Below, piece after piece: positions 13,433 through 41,340 of a DNA stretch of 49,750 nt; within the stretch, counting starts at the first letter, position 1; every line of letters starts with the position of its first letter. Origin of the DNA: Acidobacteriota bacterium (lineage in GTDB: Bacteria > Acidobacteriota > Vicinamibacteria > Vicinamibacterales > UBA2999); the NCBI GenBank assembly GCA_016213695.1, contig JACQZV010000086.1, forward strand, positions 1 through 49,750, read 5' to 3'. The notes under the pieces are model-generated. The model saw only the letters and a list, made by a program, of their open reading frames with translations. It ran no database searches and was not told the DNA's origin. Both the position numbers and the translations under genes were made by a program.

Positions 13433-13467
13433 GGCTTCCGGCTTCGGGCTTCGGGCTTCAGGCTTTG
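13433..13467. repeat. Heptad array ggcttcc/ggcttcg/ggcttcg/ggcttca/ggctttg
   Basis: Five in-register 7-mers; contains the HemQ stop codon (13458-13460). Confidence 0.9.
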
Positions 13468-14273: not shown

Positions 14274-14290
14274 GAGGCGATCTTAGATCA

Positions 14291-14332
<42 letters not shown>

Positions 14333-31133: not shown

Positions 31134-31137
31134 AACC

Positions 31138-31206
31138 AAGGCACAAGTCACAAGTCACAAGTCACAAAAAAAGATCCCTGGGCCTTGTGACTTGGGCCTT
31201 GTGACT
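31138..31206. repeat. Inverted heptad arrays (AAGTCAC)n / (CTTGTGA)n between convergent genes
   Basis: aaggcac aagtcac x3; right arm cttgtga cttgggc cttgtga; 11-bp IR CAAGTCACAAG 31144-31154 / 31184-31194. Confidence 0.95.
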
Positions 31207-33627: not shown

Positions 33628-33687
33628 CGCGACGGCTGAAGCCGCCGCGCTACAGGCACATGTAGCGCGCACGCTTCAGCGTGCGCG
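33628..33687. repeat. REPIN-like doublet: two inverted REP hairpins each preceded by GTAG
   Basis: REP1(-) CTAC 33650-33653 with stem 33628-33636/33641-33649, loop tgaa; REP2(+) GTAG 33662-33665 with stem 33666-33674/33679-33687, loop ttca. Confidence 0.85.
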
Positions 33688-34764
33688 TGCGCGTGGGTTC
33701 ACGAGCTCCGGGTGCCGTGCCGCGAACCGGCGGAGCGGCTCGACCGGCAGCCGCCCGTACACGTCGGTGCCGCTGAAGCTCCACGGCCATCCGCCCAGAT
33801 AGCCGCCGCTCACCGCGAATTCCAGGTACTCCTCGAGCGACGTGGCGGGAGGCGTGACGCCGCCGGGACGCGCGTCCGGGTTGCCGGGGATCTCACCGAG
33901 AATCACCCGCCGCCGCACATCGAGCGCGGACGCCGGCGTGCCCATGATGTCGTCTTCGCGCCCCGGATGCCGCGCGTCCGGATACGAGTGGACCTGCAAC
34001 ACGTCCAGCCCGAGCGCGTCGTCGTCCCAGGCCCACAGGTTGTGCGCCCGCGCGCAGCCGATCGTCGTCAGCACGCCGGGATGCTCGCGGTGCACCAGGC
34101 CGCTCAGCCGGGCCACGAGGTCGGCGACCAGTTCGAACGGCAGGGGATGCGGCACGTCCGGGCTCAGATCGCGCTCCCATTCCTCGATGATGAAGTCCGG
34201 CTCGTTCATGAACTCGTAGGCGGCGACGGCGGCGCCCAGATCGGCGCGCGCGCCGCCCGGGCCGTAGCGGCCGACCAGCGGCGCGAAGACCGAGTCGAAG
34301 AGGCCCTCGCGTCCCGCCTCGGACAGGAGGACGCGCGCGCGCCCCTCGGGCAGCCGCGCCTCGAAGAGCGCGCCCGTCGCCGGATCCGCGATGGCGTGCC
34401 GGAGCCTCCTGAACATCCAGCGATGATCGAGCAGCACGAGGTCGAGACGAATGCCGGCGCCGCGCGCCATGTCGAGCGCCGCGTCGAGGTCGGAGAAGAC
34501 GTACGGATCGAGACCGGCCGGCACGCCGCGATCGTCGTACACGATGCCGGCGCGCCCGTCGCAGAACACGAACCAGCGGACGACGGTGAAGCCGAGCGCC
34601 GCCATCGCGTCGAAATCACGGGCCACGGCCGGCCGCCGCGTCGAGACGCCGAGATGGGATCCCCAGATGCTGGCGCCGAAATCGAGGCCGTAGTAGATCG
34701 TCGTGCCGTCAGCGGACCACGGGTAGTTGCACCCGTGGAGATACGTCACCAGGTCACAAGGCAC
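33676..34764 (-). CDS. Glycoside hydrolase-like (cellulase/GH5-like TIM barrel) protein
   Basis: GCNYPWSADGTTIYYGLDFG...AAYEFMNEPDFIIEEW...LQVHSYPD...ILGEIPGN; start GTG at 34764 or 34749. Confidence 0.75.
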   Translation of the reverse strand: MPCDLVTYLHGCNYPWSADGTTIYYGLDFGASIWGSHLGVSTRRPAVARDFDAMAALGFTVVRWFVFCDGRAGIVYDDRGVPAGLDPYVFSDLDAALDMARGAGIRLDLVLLDHRWMFRRLRHAIADPATGALFEARLPEGRARVLLSEAGREGLFDSVFAPLVGRYGPGGARADLGAAVAAYEFMNEPDFIIEEWERDLSPDVPHPLPFELVADLVARLSGLVHREHPGVLTTIGCARAHNLWAWDDDALGLDVLQVHSYPDARHPGREDDIMGTPASALDVRRRVILGEIPGNPDARPGGVTPPATSLEEYLEFAVSGGYLGGWPWSFSGTDVYGRLPVEPLRRFAARHPELVNPRARAR

Positions 34765-34806
34765 AAGTCACAAGGCACAAGGCTCAAGTCACAACCATAA
34801 ATCACA
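34751..34806. repeat. Heptad array, left flank of four-helix-bundle gene
   Basis: aggtcac aaggcac aagtcac aaggcac aaggctc aagtcac aaccata aatcaca, in register. Confidence 0.95.
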
Positions 34807-35212: not shown

Positions 35213-35247
35213 CTTGTGACTTGTGCCTTGTGCCTTGTGCCTTGATC
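35213..35247. repeat. Heptad array, right flank of four-helix-bundle gene, inverted relative to 34751..34806
   Basis: cttgtga cttgtgc cttgtgc cttgtgc cttgatc. Confidence 0.95.
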
Positions 35248-35254
35248 CCCCGCG

Positions 35255-38059
35255 TCACCGCCGCAGGAGTTCGAGGTACTTCGCGAGCAGCGGCTGGTAC
35301 GGTCCGGTGTACGCCTTGACGTAGCGGGCGAGCTTGGACTGGTCGGCCGGCGAGACAGCCAGGCGCTCGCGCGTGGCGACGTGGTAGTGCGCGAACACCG
35401 CGGCAAAGAGCGCCGTCTGATCGCCCGGCTGGAGCGCCAGGTGGCGATCGAGCACCGGCAGCGCCTCTGCGTAGCGTCCGCCCATCAAATAGGCCGACGC
35501 CAGCCGCTGCCCGATGTCGTCGTCTGCGGTGTTCCGCTCGTAGGCGGCCTTGAGCACGTCGATGACCGACTCGGTCTGCCCGTCGCGCAGCCGCGCGTCG
35601 GCGAGCAGGAGGTAGACGATCGGCGCGCGCGGCTCGGTGCCGAGCGCCAGCTGCCACACACCCGCCGCGTCGCGGTCGCGGCCGGCGGCCGCGAACGTCG
35701 CGCCAAGATAGAACGCGGCCGGAAAGAACTCGCGCCGCGGCCCGGCGGCGAGCGCCAGCTGCGTGGCCGCCTCGTTCAGCTGCCCCTTGGCGTACCAGTC
35801 GAGCCCCTTGAAGAACGCCGCCGCCGTCTGCTCGCCGGTCGTCAACGCGTCGAGCGCCGCCGCGCCGTAGCGTCCGGCGCGCGCCTCAGCCACCGGACTC
35901 TTCAACGCCGGCGAGGTCTTCTCCACCGCGTCGAGCATCGCATCGAGCAGGTCGCGCCGCAGTGCGACCTTCGGGTCGAACTTTGCCACGGTGCCGCGCA
36001 GAAACGGCACCGGCATGCCGCCGCCGGCCTGGCCGTCGAGAATGAACGGCCGCACGAGCACGCCCGCCACCGTGCCGCCGCGCAGCACCCGCGCGCGCGC
36101 GAGGTAGCGGCCGGGCGGCAGGAGGGAGGGCGAGAGCAGCCCCTGCGCCACCCGCTGCGTGGGCTGAGACCCGGCGATCATCTGCGCGGGCGCGGACAGC
36201 AGCGCCGGGCGATCCTGGTCGTCCGCGATTTCCAGGGTCACGGTCGTGCTCTCCAGCGTGGCGGGCGTCGTCGCATACATCTCGAGAAACGCGGCGACGT
36301 TCCCTGCGACCCGCGGCTCGACGCCCGGTCTGATGCGGCGGCTGCCGTCGCCGCCATCGCCAATCAGCAGATCGCCGAGCGCGAACTCCTCGCCCCCGAG
36401 CTTCCACGCGTTGACGTCGCGAATGATGCCCCCGCGCCGCCCCGCGGCGTCCACGACGCCGAATCGAAGCGAGTAATTGCCCGGCTCCACCAGAATCTCC
36501 GTCAGGTAGTCCCGCGCCGTGTTCGCCTGCCCGTTCGGCACCGAGAGCACGCGCTTGTCGATCGACCCGGAGACGACCTTCCCTTCGCCGTCGAGCAGCA
36601 CGTAGCCGACGGTGTACTCCTCCGGCTCGCCGCCAGGCTGGCCGATATCGGCCGCGACCATGACGCGCGCCTTGTCGCTGGCCGGATCCTTCTGCGTGAA
36701 GGTAGTCAGCCGTACCGGCACCTCGGCGACGCCGAACGGCGACTTCAGCGCGTCCATCAGCGTCTCTTCGGCCTTCCGCCGGGTGGTGGTGGGCGACGAC
36801 AGGACGAAGGCGCGGCGCGACCGGACCGTCACGCCGCGGCGCCGCACCTCCACGTCGATGCGGTGCTGCTTGCCGTCGCGGTCGCCGCGGGCCTCCTCGA
36901 CGCCGAGCATGTAGTACGCCAGCGTCTCCGCCGCGAGCCGGTCGAAGACGGCCTCGCCGGTGCCCGCGATGTAGTAGATCGACCCGCGCGTCGCCCCCGC
37001 GAGATCGCCGAGCCCCTGCACCTGCATGTCGCGGTCCTCGGTCGGCGTCGGCTGCAGCCGGCTGACGGTAATGTCGTGCCGCGGCACGTCGAGGAGCATC
37101 ACGTTGATGGTGACGTGCGCGTACGCCGCCGCGCGGATGACGCCGTCGAGGTCGCTCGGGCTGTCGAGCACCATCCCTTCCGACAGCAGAATCAGCGTCT
37201 TGGGGCCGTCGATGACCGACAGGCCCGCCAGCAGGTCGTACAGCCCGCGCAGCGAGTCGGTGGTGTCCTGGCGGACGCTGCGCACGAGCGAGCTGGCCTC
37301 GCTCAGAACGTCGCGCTCGCACTGCTCGAGCGCGACGCCGGTGAGGCGCGGGCACTCGCGCAGCGCGACCTGCGCGAAGATGCGGCCGTCACTGCGCTCC
37401 GCGATGGCGATCGCCTCATACACTCCGATGGTGAACCTGCCCGACCCGGCCGAGACCTGTTGCCGCCCGACCACGCGCTGCATGGCCTGCTTGAGGCGCA
37501 GCTTGTCGTCCGTAAAGCCGACCTGGATGCCCGGCTCCGGATACGCGATAAACGCGGTGCGATCGGCCGGGCTGAGCTTGTCGAGAAATTTCGCCGCGGT
37601 GTCGAGCAGCGCCCGCGCCCCGCCGAAACGGATGCCGAGCTGATCGACCGCGATGACGAACATCCGGCCGTTCGGCGGCTTCAGGTTGGTCGTGAACAGC
37701 GTCTCGAACGGATCGGCCGCCTCGCGCTTGGCCGCCTCGAGATCGATGCGCACGTGGTCGGCCGACACGACCCGGCGCGGCTCGCCGTCGATCTTGACGA
37801 CAAAGTCGGGCGCCAGCAGATCCTCGACCGGGCGGCCGTTGCCGTTGACCACGGAAACGTCGACGGCAATCACGTCCACGCCCGTGCGGAAGGTGGGGCC
37901 CTGGACGGGCGCGTCGGTCTGCGCCTGGGCGCCCAGCCGCGCGGCACCGGCAGCCAGGACCACTCCAAGGCACAAGGCGCAAGGCGCAAGGCTCAAGGCA
38001 CGGCGAGATGGACCCCTTGTGACTTGTGACTTGGGCCTTGTGACGTGTGTCTTGTCCAT
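35255..38059 (-). CDS. VWFA-related domain protein with C-terminal TPR-like region
   Basis: FRTGVDVIAVDVSVVNGNGRPVEDLLAPDFVVKIDGEPRRV; ATG at 38059; N-terminus encoded by heptad array. Confidence 0.85.
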   Translation of the reverse strand: MDKTHVTRPKSQVTRGPSRRALSLAPCALCLGVVLAAGAARLGAQAQTDAPVQGPTFRTGVDVIAVDVSVVNGNGRPVEDLLAPDFVVKIDGEPRRVVSADHVRIDLEAAKREAADPFETLFTTNLKPPNGRMFVIAVDQLGIRFGGARALLDTAAKFLDKLSPADRTAFIAYPEPGIQVGFTDDKLRLKQAMQRVVGRQQVSAGSGRFTIGVYEAIAIAERSDGRIFAQVALRECPRLTGVALEQCERDVLSEASSLVRSVRQDTTDSLRGLYDLLAGLSVIDGPKTLILLSEGMVLDSPSDLDGVIRAAAYAHVTINVMLLDVPRHDITVSRLQPTPTEDRDMQVQGLGDLAGATRGSIYYIAGTGEAVFDRLAAETLAYYMLGVEEARGDRDGKQHRIDVEVRRRGVTVRSRRAFVLSSPTTTRRKAEETLMDALKSPFGVAEVPVRLTTFTQKDPASDKARVMVAADIGQPGGEPEEYTVGYVLLDGEGKVVSGSIDKRVLSVPNGQANTARDYLTEILVEPGNYSLRFGVVDAAGRRGGIIRDVNAWKLGGEEFALGDLLIGDGGDGSRRIRPGVEPRVAGNVAAFLEMYATTPATLESTTVTLEIADDQDRPALLSAPAQMIAGSQPTQRVAQGLLSPSLLPPGRYLARARVLRGGTVAGVLVRPFILDGQAGGGMPVPFLRGTVAKFDPKVALRRDLLDAMLDAVEKTSPALKSPVAEARAGRYGAAALDALTTGEQTAAAFFKGLDWYAKGQLNEAATQLALAAGPRREFFPAAFYLGATFAAAGRDRDAAGVWQLALGTEPRAPIVYLLLADARLRDGQTESVIDVLKAAYERNTADDDIGQRLASAYLMGGRYAEALPVLDRHLALQPGDQTALFAAVFAHYHVATRERLAVSPADQSKLARYVKAYTGPYQPLLAKYLELLRR
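37967..38057. repeat. Inverted heptad arrays inside the VWFA CDS
   Basis: aaggcac aaggcgc aaggcgc aaggctc aaggcac (37967-38001) and cttgtga cttgtga cttgggc cttgtga cgtgtgt cttgtcc (38016-38057). Confidence 0.95.
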
Positions 38060-38126
38060 CGTCCACCTCGCGACGGGTCGATCACAGAGCAACGGCCGCA
38101 AAAAGGCAAGCGAAACGATGGCGTCG

Positions 38127-41100
38127 CTACAGGCGCCCGCGCGCCTCGGCCAGCTCCGGCAATCCCGGGTCGGCGCCCTTCCAGAGACTGAGGAATCGCT
38201 GGTACTGCTCGCGCGCCGCCGCCCGGTCGCCGGTACGGTCGAGCAGCCGCGCCATCTCGAGCACGTAGCGCGGCTCGAGCATCGACGTCCACTTCTGGCT
38301 GATGTCGGACGTCAGGAGCTGACGATAGATCTCGATGGCACCACCGACGTCGCCGCGCGCCACCCGGACGCGCGCCAGGCCGTCGCGGCACGGCAGGTGG
38401 TTGATGAACGCGGGCCAGTACGAGTCGGGGCCCGAGAGCGGCGGCTTGAAGGCGGGCTGCGCCGCGGTCCAGGCCGTCTCCGCGGCCGCGACATCCCCGG
38501 CCGCCAGCGCAATTTCACCCTCGAGGCAGCGCTGCAGCCAGACGTGATTCATCCGCCGGGCATCGAACACCGTGCGCTGCTGCTCGAGGCGCGTGCGCGC
38601 CGCCGCCAGGTCGCTGCGGCGAACTTCAATCACACCGCCCAGCAGACGAAGCAGCATCTGGGCGTTCGCTCGAGCGTCCGGGTTCGGTACGCCGGGGCTG
38701 GCCTCTTCGGCCTTCTGCACGTTCTGGAGCGCCCGCGCGTAGTCCCGCCGCTCCATCGCGAAGAGCGCCGCCAAATCGAACGCTCTCCCCCGGTTGCCGG
38801 CATCCTGAAACCGATCCGCCAGCGTCTGCCCGTCGCGCAGCCGCTCCTCGGCCTGCCGGTAGCGGCCCACCCTGGACAGAAAGTACGCGGTGGTGACGAG
38901 CGTATCGGTCGAGGGAAGCCCCCCGCGCTGCTCGATCGCCTGCTCCTGGCTGAGCTCCCCGAGCGCCTCGTCGTAGCGTCCCAGCATCCCGTAGCCCCAG
39001 GCTTTGCCGCGGTGCGAGGCCGCGAACGTCGTGTCAAGGGCCAGCGCCTGCGTGTAGACGTCCAACGCCTTCTGCGGCTGCCCGGCCACCAGATACGCTT
39101 CGCCGAGGCTGTCGCGCGGATTCGCTTCCTTCGGGTTGAGACGCGCGTAGGTGTCGAGCTCCCGGATCGCCTCCGGATAGCGTCCGTTGCTGAGCAAGGC
39201 GTACCCGTACGAATTGTGGAGCGGCCCGTAATCGGGCACGGCCTTCACGCCGCGCTCCATGGTGGCGAGGCCCTTCACGCGATCGCGAGACAGGTAAAAG
39301 CGGGCGAGTTCGTCGTACGCTTCCGCCTCGTCCGGATACCGCGCCAGGAGCGACTCCATCAGCGAAATCGCCTTGTCGAAGTCCCCCGCGCGCCGGGCCG
39401 CGCCGGCTTCGGCCATGAGCCGCTGCCGCCCCGGCAGCCGGTCGAGATTCCCGTCCAGCCGCCGGCGGTACTCCTCGGCCGCCGCGTTGTCGCCTGTCTG
39501 CTCCGCAGCCTTGGAGAGGTTGAACCACGCGACGGCGAAGGAGGGATCGAGCCGGACGGCCTCCTCGAGCAGCCTGCGCGCGTCGGCACGGCGCAGGTTG
39601 AATAAGGCCTCCGTGCCTTCGGTAAACAGGCGATACGCTTCCAGATTGCTCGACGTGACTTCGGCCACGCCGCGCGCCGCACCACGGTCGGCGACATTGA
39701 GGTTGCTGCGAATGCGCCCGGCCAGGTTGTCGACGAGGCCGAATAGATCCGCGCCGGAGACGGACTGCGCCAGCAGGATCCGCCCGGTCGCCACGTCCTG
39801 CACGCGGACGTCGATCAGCGTGCTGCCGCCGGCGCTGAAGATGCTGCCCGCCACGAGCGCCCCGGCGCCCGAGCGGCGTCCCACCTCGAGCGCGCGGCCG
39901 GCGTCGAGCGCGCCGCTCGCGCCCAGCCCCTCCACGATCTCCTGGATCCGTTCGGTTCTCACGACATCGAGACCGGGCGTCTGGGCGAGCCCGGTCACCA
40001 GCATGTTCGGAACGCCCTTGGCCAGCCAGGCGTTCTCGCTCGACGCGCCGGGCGCCTCGAACGCGAGCACGGCGATCGACGGACGGCCCGACGCGCCGAT
40101 CCCTTGCGCCGAGCTGTCCGGACGGGAGAAGAAGAATGCCGCCACGCCGATCGCCACGACCGCCACGGCTGCGCCGGCTGCCGCCAGCGGACGGCGGCGG
40201 ACGGCGGCGCCGACTTTCGCAGCGACCGACGTCCCCGGCGACGCGGCGCGGCGACTCCGGCTGCTGCCCTCACGGGCCGCCCTGGCGCGCGACGGCTTGC
40301 GCTCGGCCGGCGGTGCTCCCGCCGGCGCACTGCGGCGCCTCGGGGACGCCGACCGCGCCCGCGGGCCCGCCTCGCGCGCCGGACCGGCGGGACTCGGTGC
40401 GCTCTGGCTGTCGCGCACCAGCCGCCGCAGATCGCCGCGCAGATCGGCAGCGGTCTGATACCGCACGTCACGGTCCTTCTCGATCGCCTTGGCCACGATC
40501 CGCGCCAGCTCGTCGGGCACGTCGGGATTGACGCGGACGACGTCGGCCGGCGCGCTGCGCAGGATCGCATCGAAGATCACGGCGGTGGTGCGGCCGGTGA
40601 ACGCGGGACGGCCGGTCGCCATCTCGTCGAGCACGAGGCCAAGCGAGAACAGGTCGGTGCGCGCATCCCGGTCCTCACCGCGGGCCTGTTCGGGCGACAT
40701 GTAGGCCACGGTCCCGATGGCGATGCCCGGGCTGGTCAACGCCTCGTCCGGGACGCCGGTGACCGCCAGCGCCGACTCTCCTGGCGCGGCAACCGGCGAG
40801 CCGGTCCCGAGCTTCGCGAGGCCGAAGTCGAGGATCTTGGCGTCGCCGCGCGTGGTGACGAAGACGTTGGCCGGCTTGATGTCGCGATGGACGATCCCCT
40901 TGGCGTGCGCGGCGTCGAGCGCGTCGGCCATCTGCGCCCCGAGCAGGAGGACCTGCGGGACCGGCACCGGACGGTCGGCGATGAGCTGCTTGAGCGTCTG
41001 CCCCTGCAGCAGCTCCATCACCATGAAGTGCCGGCCCTCGTGGGTGCCGATGTCGTAGATGGTGCAGATGTGAGGGTGATTCAGTGCCGAGGCGGCGCGC

Positions 41101-41273
41101 GCCTCGCGCTGGAAACGCTCGATCGCCTGCGGGTCGGCGGAGACATTGTCGGGAAGCACCTTGAGCGCCACGCGGCGCCCGAGGCGCGTGTCCTCCGCCT
41201 CGTAGACGACGCCCATCCCGCCGCCGCCAAGCTGCTCGAGCACGCGGTAATGGGAGACGAGCTGACCGATCAT
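38127..41273 (-). CDS. Serine/threonine protein kinase with TM, TolB-like and TPR regions
   Basis: [55 protein letters not shown] after kinase domain, TPR repeats. Confidence 0.95.
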
Positions 41274-41298: not shown

Positions 41299-41340
41299 GG
41301 CTTTGGGCTTTGGGCCTGGGGCCTGGGGCCTGGGGCCTTA
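41299..41340. repeat. Heptad array ggctttg x2 / ggcctgg x3 / ggcctta
   Basis: Six in-register 7-mers; last one contains the stop codon of the aconitase-family gene. Confidence 0.95.

Follow-up and report, generated by a model that had tools for sequence, protein, structure and literature searches.

We suggest that an inverted pair of heptanucleotide-repeat arrays was captured by the signal peptide of a predicted secreted VWFA-domain protein, and we consider it likely that this is a recurrent type of event and that arrays captured in this way are kept by selection. An inverted array of the intergenic type would have been inserted directly after the ATG, or have grown there, within the 5' coding sequence, exchanging about 7 ancestral codons in frame for 31 codons. 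Its CACAAGG-type arm would then supply the basic n-region and its CCTTGTG-type arm a hydrophobic stretch, the latter running into the retained ancestral part of the h-region and the cleavage site, so that the Sec-type signal peptide would be complete, though long. Recurrence would follow from a heptapeptide that does not depend on the reading frame and from the pairing of a basic with a hydrophobic strand. Selection may retain heptad insertions in signal peptides and purge hydrophobic ones elsewhere, since signal peptides presumably tolerate replacement. In general, heptad arrays look like a recurrent, frame-independent source of secretion signals, and we lean, with less assurance, towards the broader view that inverted heptad arrays naturally and repeatedly donate signal peptides across Acidobacteriota, acting as frame-proof palindromic cassettes, one arm basic and the other hydrophobic, that rewrite export signals with lineage-specific units.

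The gene lies in a 49,750-nt stretch of DNA (the window, meaning the whole stretch analysed) and is represented by one metagenome-assembled genome (3.75 Mb, 203 contigs). Its product matches NCBIfam TIGR03436 acidobact_VWFA (E=2e-29) and also contains TPR repeats; orthologs belong to the same family at 50-77% identity, and those relatives that carry names are mostly metagenome assemblies labelled Acidobacteria. The two arms are inverted relative to each other and lie in frame, directly 3' of the ATG (Table 1). The minus-strand translation given by the sequence-only reading, MDKTHVTRPKSQVTRGPSRRALSLAPCALCLGVVLAAGAARLGAQAQ, is correct. The resulting leader has the layout of a Sec-type signal, with a K/R-rich n-region, an h-region ALSLAPCALCLGVVLAAGAA and an AQA/Q c-region. 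The same reading had equated the left arm with the hydrophobic core; this applies to ALSLAPCALCL(G), but VVLAAGAA, also part of the core, lies outside the repeat. The lag-7 score of positions 37960-38059 is 21, against a maximum of 9 among 20,000 shuffles, and besides it only lag 14 stands out (score 14), all other lags between 4 and 14 scoring ≤4. Taken with the genome-wide dominance of lag 7 described below, the shuffles rule out a chance origin of the 7-nt period. Other readings of the leader were also considered. The arms pair in the predicted mRNA fold, but this fold is only as stable as those of shuffles (z=-0.21) and gives no support to a hairpin as the selected feature; a lipoprotein signal was rejected, the left-arm cysteines having no lipobox match by eye. 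SRRALSL bears only a partial resemblance to a twin-arginine motif.

Table 1. Predicted features of the VWFA gene, its 5' end and nearby arrays of the same heptad family (window coordinates)
Feature	Position	Strand	Basis
VWFA-domain/TPR secreted protein gene (predicted), 934 aa	35255..38059	-	TIGR03436, orthologs, dN/dS
Start codon ATG, ancestral	38057..38059	-	TGTGAT-to-ATG leader of 21 nt, length as in L010
Right arm, CACAAGG/CAAGTCA-type heptads, encoding basic n-region KTHVTRPKSQVTR	38016..38055	-	Tandem Repeats Finder, codon display
Inter-arm spacer, 14 nt, ~GPSRR	38002..38015	-	Sequence
Left arm, CCTTGNG heptads, encoding first half of hydrophobic core, ALSLAPCALCL	37966..38001	-	Tandem Repeats Finder, codon display
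Remainder of signal peptide, ancestral, VVLAAGAARLGAQA; likely cleavage AQA/Q	37922..37963	-	Ortholog DNA alignment
Ribosome-binding-like GAGG, 6 nt 5' of ATG	38066..38069	-	Sequence; similar GGAG/GAG in orthologs
Promoter-like element CTTGCCTTTT (38101-38110) ... TGTGAT (38081-38086), putative	38081..38110	-	Conserved in L010-L013 and L015-L017
VWFA-type heptad family, intergenic, just past the VWFA stop	35213..35244	.	
VWFA-type heptad family, overlapping 5' end of gene 33676-34764	34745..34794	.	
VWFA-type heptad family, inverted pair, intergenic	31137..31206	.	

The history of the leader can be followed in an alignment of 12 5' regions, those of the window and of 11 orthologs. The orthologs lack the array and their flanks align around this in-frame palindromic repeat, which indicates that the signal peptide kept its ancestral start and its second half. 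A promoter-like CTTGCsTTTT followed by TGTGAT or a similar hexamer is kept in most of the aligned regions, and between the window and L010 the spacing from TGTGAT through the 21-nt leader to the ATG is equal, with clear sequence similarity. The segment GTGGTCCTGG is identical at the DNA level in L011 and L012, and from there onwards the window realigns with both orthologs in the same frame (VVLAAGAARLGAQAQ). From the ATG to this segment there are 7 codons in L011 and L012 versus 31 in the window, a net gain of 72 nt. According to the alignment, the ATG at 38059, the putative ribosome-binding site, the promoter-like element and the signal peptide from VVLAAG onwards are all ancestral. In a pre-existing signal peptide, the arrays took over the n-region together with the leading part of the h-region, some 7 codons becoming 31. 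The signal peptides of nearly all VWFA orthologs are ordinary (e.g. MKKLFALVLTLAVGAAAPAAAQ). No target-site duplication was noticed in the 5' alignment of the window and its orthologs. The proposal that a non-coding repeat had been captured as a secretion signal thus stands for part of the signal but not for all of it: the second half (VVL..AQA), and only that half, matches the orthologs residue for residue, a match that the sequence-only reading had named as evidence against its proposal, and the alignment rules out that a repeat created the entire signal peptide.

In G015, the VWFA ortholog L019 (oriented ~1408-1555) carries an inverted repeat, ACCACGAAG...CTTCGTGG, which encodes the n-region and the first hydrophobic residues; this second palindrome differs from that of the window but occupies the corresponding site of the gene. 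The start codons of L017 and L018 lie a few bases past a promoter-like -10 box, which suggests a leaderless mRNA. Directly upstream of the VWFA gene the window holds a Ser/Thr kinase-TPR gene (38127-41273), in the place of which an aconitase-like gene adjoins the VWFA gene at several orthologous loci (L010, L018-L020).

Why heptads can encode segments of a signal peptide follows from the genetic code. Since 7 and 3 are coprime, any heptad repeat yields the same heptapeptide, merely rotated, in every frame; three-frame translation of 14 units in both orientations gave a single cyclic peptide for each. Hydropathy is set by the central base of the codon (reviewed in PMC8431130), so that complementary strands are opposite in hydropathy: PCALCLV is the product of CCTTGTG (mean hydropathy +2.4) and HKAQGTR that of CACAAGG (-2.1). 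An inverted pair in which the purine-rich arm comes first would consequently encode a basic and then a hydrophobic segment, arranged as in signal peptides. Not all units are suitable, as CTTGTGA, CCTTGAG and GATCCCT, when perfectly repeated, contain stops in the hydrophobic direction.

The VWFA arrays are typical for their genome. Lag-7 arrays occur at ~92 per Mb (60 arrays in 649 kb sampled), a density that is somewhat high since part of the sample came from contigs with known array matches; lag 14, the harmonic, gave 48 arrays in the same 649 kb, and the remaining lags gave 0-14 arrays. In this sample, where ~80% of the DNA is coding, 38 of 62 elements are intergenic and most others sit at gene ends. 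The main unit families are AAGGCAC/AAGTCAC (the VWFA type), ACTGCCC and AAGCCTG, among others. Within the window, arrays of the CTTCGGG, CAGTGGG and GGGCCTG families were also seen, intergenic or at gene ends, at 13433-13465, 14289-14331 and 41299-41338; the likely GTG starts of gene 33676-34764 lie inside CCTTGTG units, and its start codon may be supplied by the repeat. Among relatives the period of 7 is constant and the units differ: GATCCCT and TTTGGGA in G016, CCTTCTG/CCTTTTG in G024, and TTTGGGA and GGGAGTT in G014. Within the order, 16 of 162 genomes carry CCTTGTG-type arrays, and within the phylum 23 of 396 carry arrays of the TTTGGGA type; backward-read controls were nearly empty in both cases.

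Heptads encode predicted signal peptides of other secreted proteins as well. At L057:6639-7970 of the source genome, GGGCTTC and TTGTGCC heptads make up the signal peptide MNRASGSRLRAS[ LCLLTCALCLVP ]WTVLSAQ. A clear heptad period in signal-peptide DNA is present in 8 of 18 orthologs of this family, L057 included (G000, G026, G011, G016, G002, G014, G007 and G024), from differing units, e.g. TTTGGGA giving ALGFGIWLLGFG in G016, TTTGGGC giving LGFRFWALGFGLWALG in G002 and CCTTTTG giving FALCLLPFAF in G024. As for the rest of the family, G029 is a weaker case, G015 has a period of 8 and the others show no significant repeat; members without heptads have mostly ordinary signal peptides. Two further genes of G024 carry signal peptides made of inverted arrays, those of the TPM-domain protein L225 (QGTRQKAEGK-IV-FLPFALCLLTCA) and of the DUF4159 protein L209 (KTKKEKV-FRFSFF), and the same-genus orthologs of both mostly have ordinary ones. 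The M16 peptidase L235, the VWFA paralogs L216 and L112 and the unnamed protein L198 also have heptad-encoded signal peptides. So does L113, an extracellular solute-binding protein (SBP_bac_5 E=9e-91), which should need export in order to function. Apart from signal peptides, a Pro-Lys-rich linker that follows directly on the signal peptide, APKPQVPSPKPQAPSPKP, is encoded by CCCAAGC-type heptads in L224:13805-14344 and in L027 (the latter judged from its peptide pattern alone).

In a survey of ~2 Mb from five genomes, which used a simple hand-made signal-peptide rule and hand-made gene calls and left out the window and the deliberately chosen L057-family loci, 5 arrays fell in 12,326 signal-peptide codons versus 9 in 448,999 other coding codons, a ~20-fold enrichment (binomial p=2e-5) with small event counts, one doubtful match among the five (L238) and an asymmetric choice of start codons that favours the scoring of signal peptides. 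These figures bear on an alternative that we regard as unlikely but the most serious of those considered, namely that intergenic arrays spill over into start regions, where a longer leader is tolerated and any likeness to a signal is incidental, with no selection involved. Most arrays are indeed intergenic or at gene ends, several adjoin cytosolic or membrane-protein genes that have a start just past the array (L052, L064 and the PlsX-like L238), and the general abundance of arrays near gene starts accounts for part of the enrichment. However, the N-terminal 25 codons of genes without a signal peptide hold only 1 array in 19,600 codons, which differs from the rate in signal codons with p ~0.035 by our own arithmetic. 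Spillover would also leave unexplained that the nine interior arrays give peptides with a mean hydropathy of -0.03 to -2.0, none of them hydrophobic, and that arrays in secreted genes supply a needed n- or h-region, with no complete alternative signal peptide downstream.

Heptameric repeats have been described in Xanthomonas (GGGAATC) and Nostoc (GGGGA[C/T]T), mostly intergenic and some as inverted pairs (PMC4692102). The acidobacterial arrays share with these and with cyanobacterial STRR-type repeats their degenerate 7-nt units, genome-wide occurrence, mostly intergenic positions near gene ends and taxon-specific units; the source genome has both the genome-wide dominance of the exact 7-nt period and the dispersed, mainly intergenic placement, as well as convergent inverted pairs like those of Xanthomonas. 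It differs in that its arrays are mostly not of the GGGNATC/GGGGAYT type with G-quadruplex potential, the main units being AAGGCAC, AAGTCAC and ACTGCCC, with TTTGGGA and GATCCCT in relatives. Xanthomonas and Nostoc also lie outside this phylum, and PMC4692102 is silent on signal peptides, whereas in proteins predicted to be exported the acidobacterial arrays make up n- and h-regions. In-frame palindromic insertions are known from Rickettsia and Wolbachia genes and, according to the summary in PMC2996958, are tolerated in non-structured regions. The Rickettsia palindromic elements are likewise short palindromic repeats placed in frame in an existing gene. Their palindromes are longer and are not known to have a period of 7; unlike them, the acidobacterial repeats are heptad arrays, read the same in all frames and are concentrated in signal peptides. 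In classical invertase experiments random sequences reportedly act as secretion signals, which would mean that signal peptides make low demands on sequence and that a repeat could serve, although those signals came from laboratory selection and not from a natural genomic repeat. We found no report in the open-access literature that joins heptad repeats with Acidobacteria, nor one of heptameric repeats or in-frame palindromes reused as bacterial signal peptides; both kinds of element are known, and their reuse as signal-peptide parts appears to be new.

A 7-nt unit in a 5' coding region is also the classical layout of a phase-variable switch, as in neuO of E. coli K1, where full translation occurs only at repeat numbers that are multiples of three (PMC13001214). 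Slippage in the copy number of the VWFA heptads, shifting the frame and turning the secreted protein on and off, is nevertheless improbable. The VWFA units are degenerate (CAAGGCA, CAAGGCG, CAAGGCG, CAAGGCT, CAAGGCA), which should suppress slippage, sites of this heptad family are mostly intergenic, and Rehm et al. judged the heptameric repeats of Xanthomonas and Nostoc unlikely to be phase-variable (PMC4692102). We give equally little weight to gene decay, in which the array, sitting as it does in a functional element, would have wrecked the signal peptide and ended export. Against this, the arrays contain no stop in the VWFA frame, the net length change is a multiple of 3 and the 934-aa frame is intact; dN/dS relative to four orthologs is ~0.19-0.25, a value averaged over the whole divergence and little informative on the time since insertion. 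Together with the anatomy of the leader, the intact frame and the constraint on the mature protein suggest that the captured array forms part of a chimeric leader that probably directs export. Least probable is translation from a downstream start, a possibility raised by the sequence-only reading, with the array as untranslated leader: in-frame TTG (in the left arm) and GTG (37961-37963) codons do follow the beginning of the array, but the ancestral ATG, the GAGG and the 21-nt leader with unchanged, L010-like spacing to the promoter-like TGTGAT all lie upstream of it, and a start at GTG 37963 would cost the n-region and half of the core.

If the captured-array reading is correct, it provides a concrete route from non-coding repeats to functional parts of proteins, and the route has a simple basis in a period coprime with 3 and in the hydropathic opposition of complementary codons. 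It would also make signal-peptide turnover testable through ortholog comparison, and annotators may note that unusual N-termini, for example repeats of PCALCLV or LGFGIWD, could be genuine signal peptides. Arrays with a period of 8, which is also coprime with 3, occur too: 400 kb of G024 contain 29 lag-8 arrays, and in L147 of G015 a period-8 array encodes the core of a predicted signal peptide.
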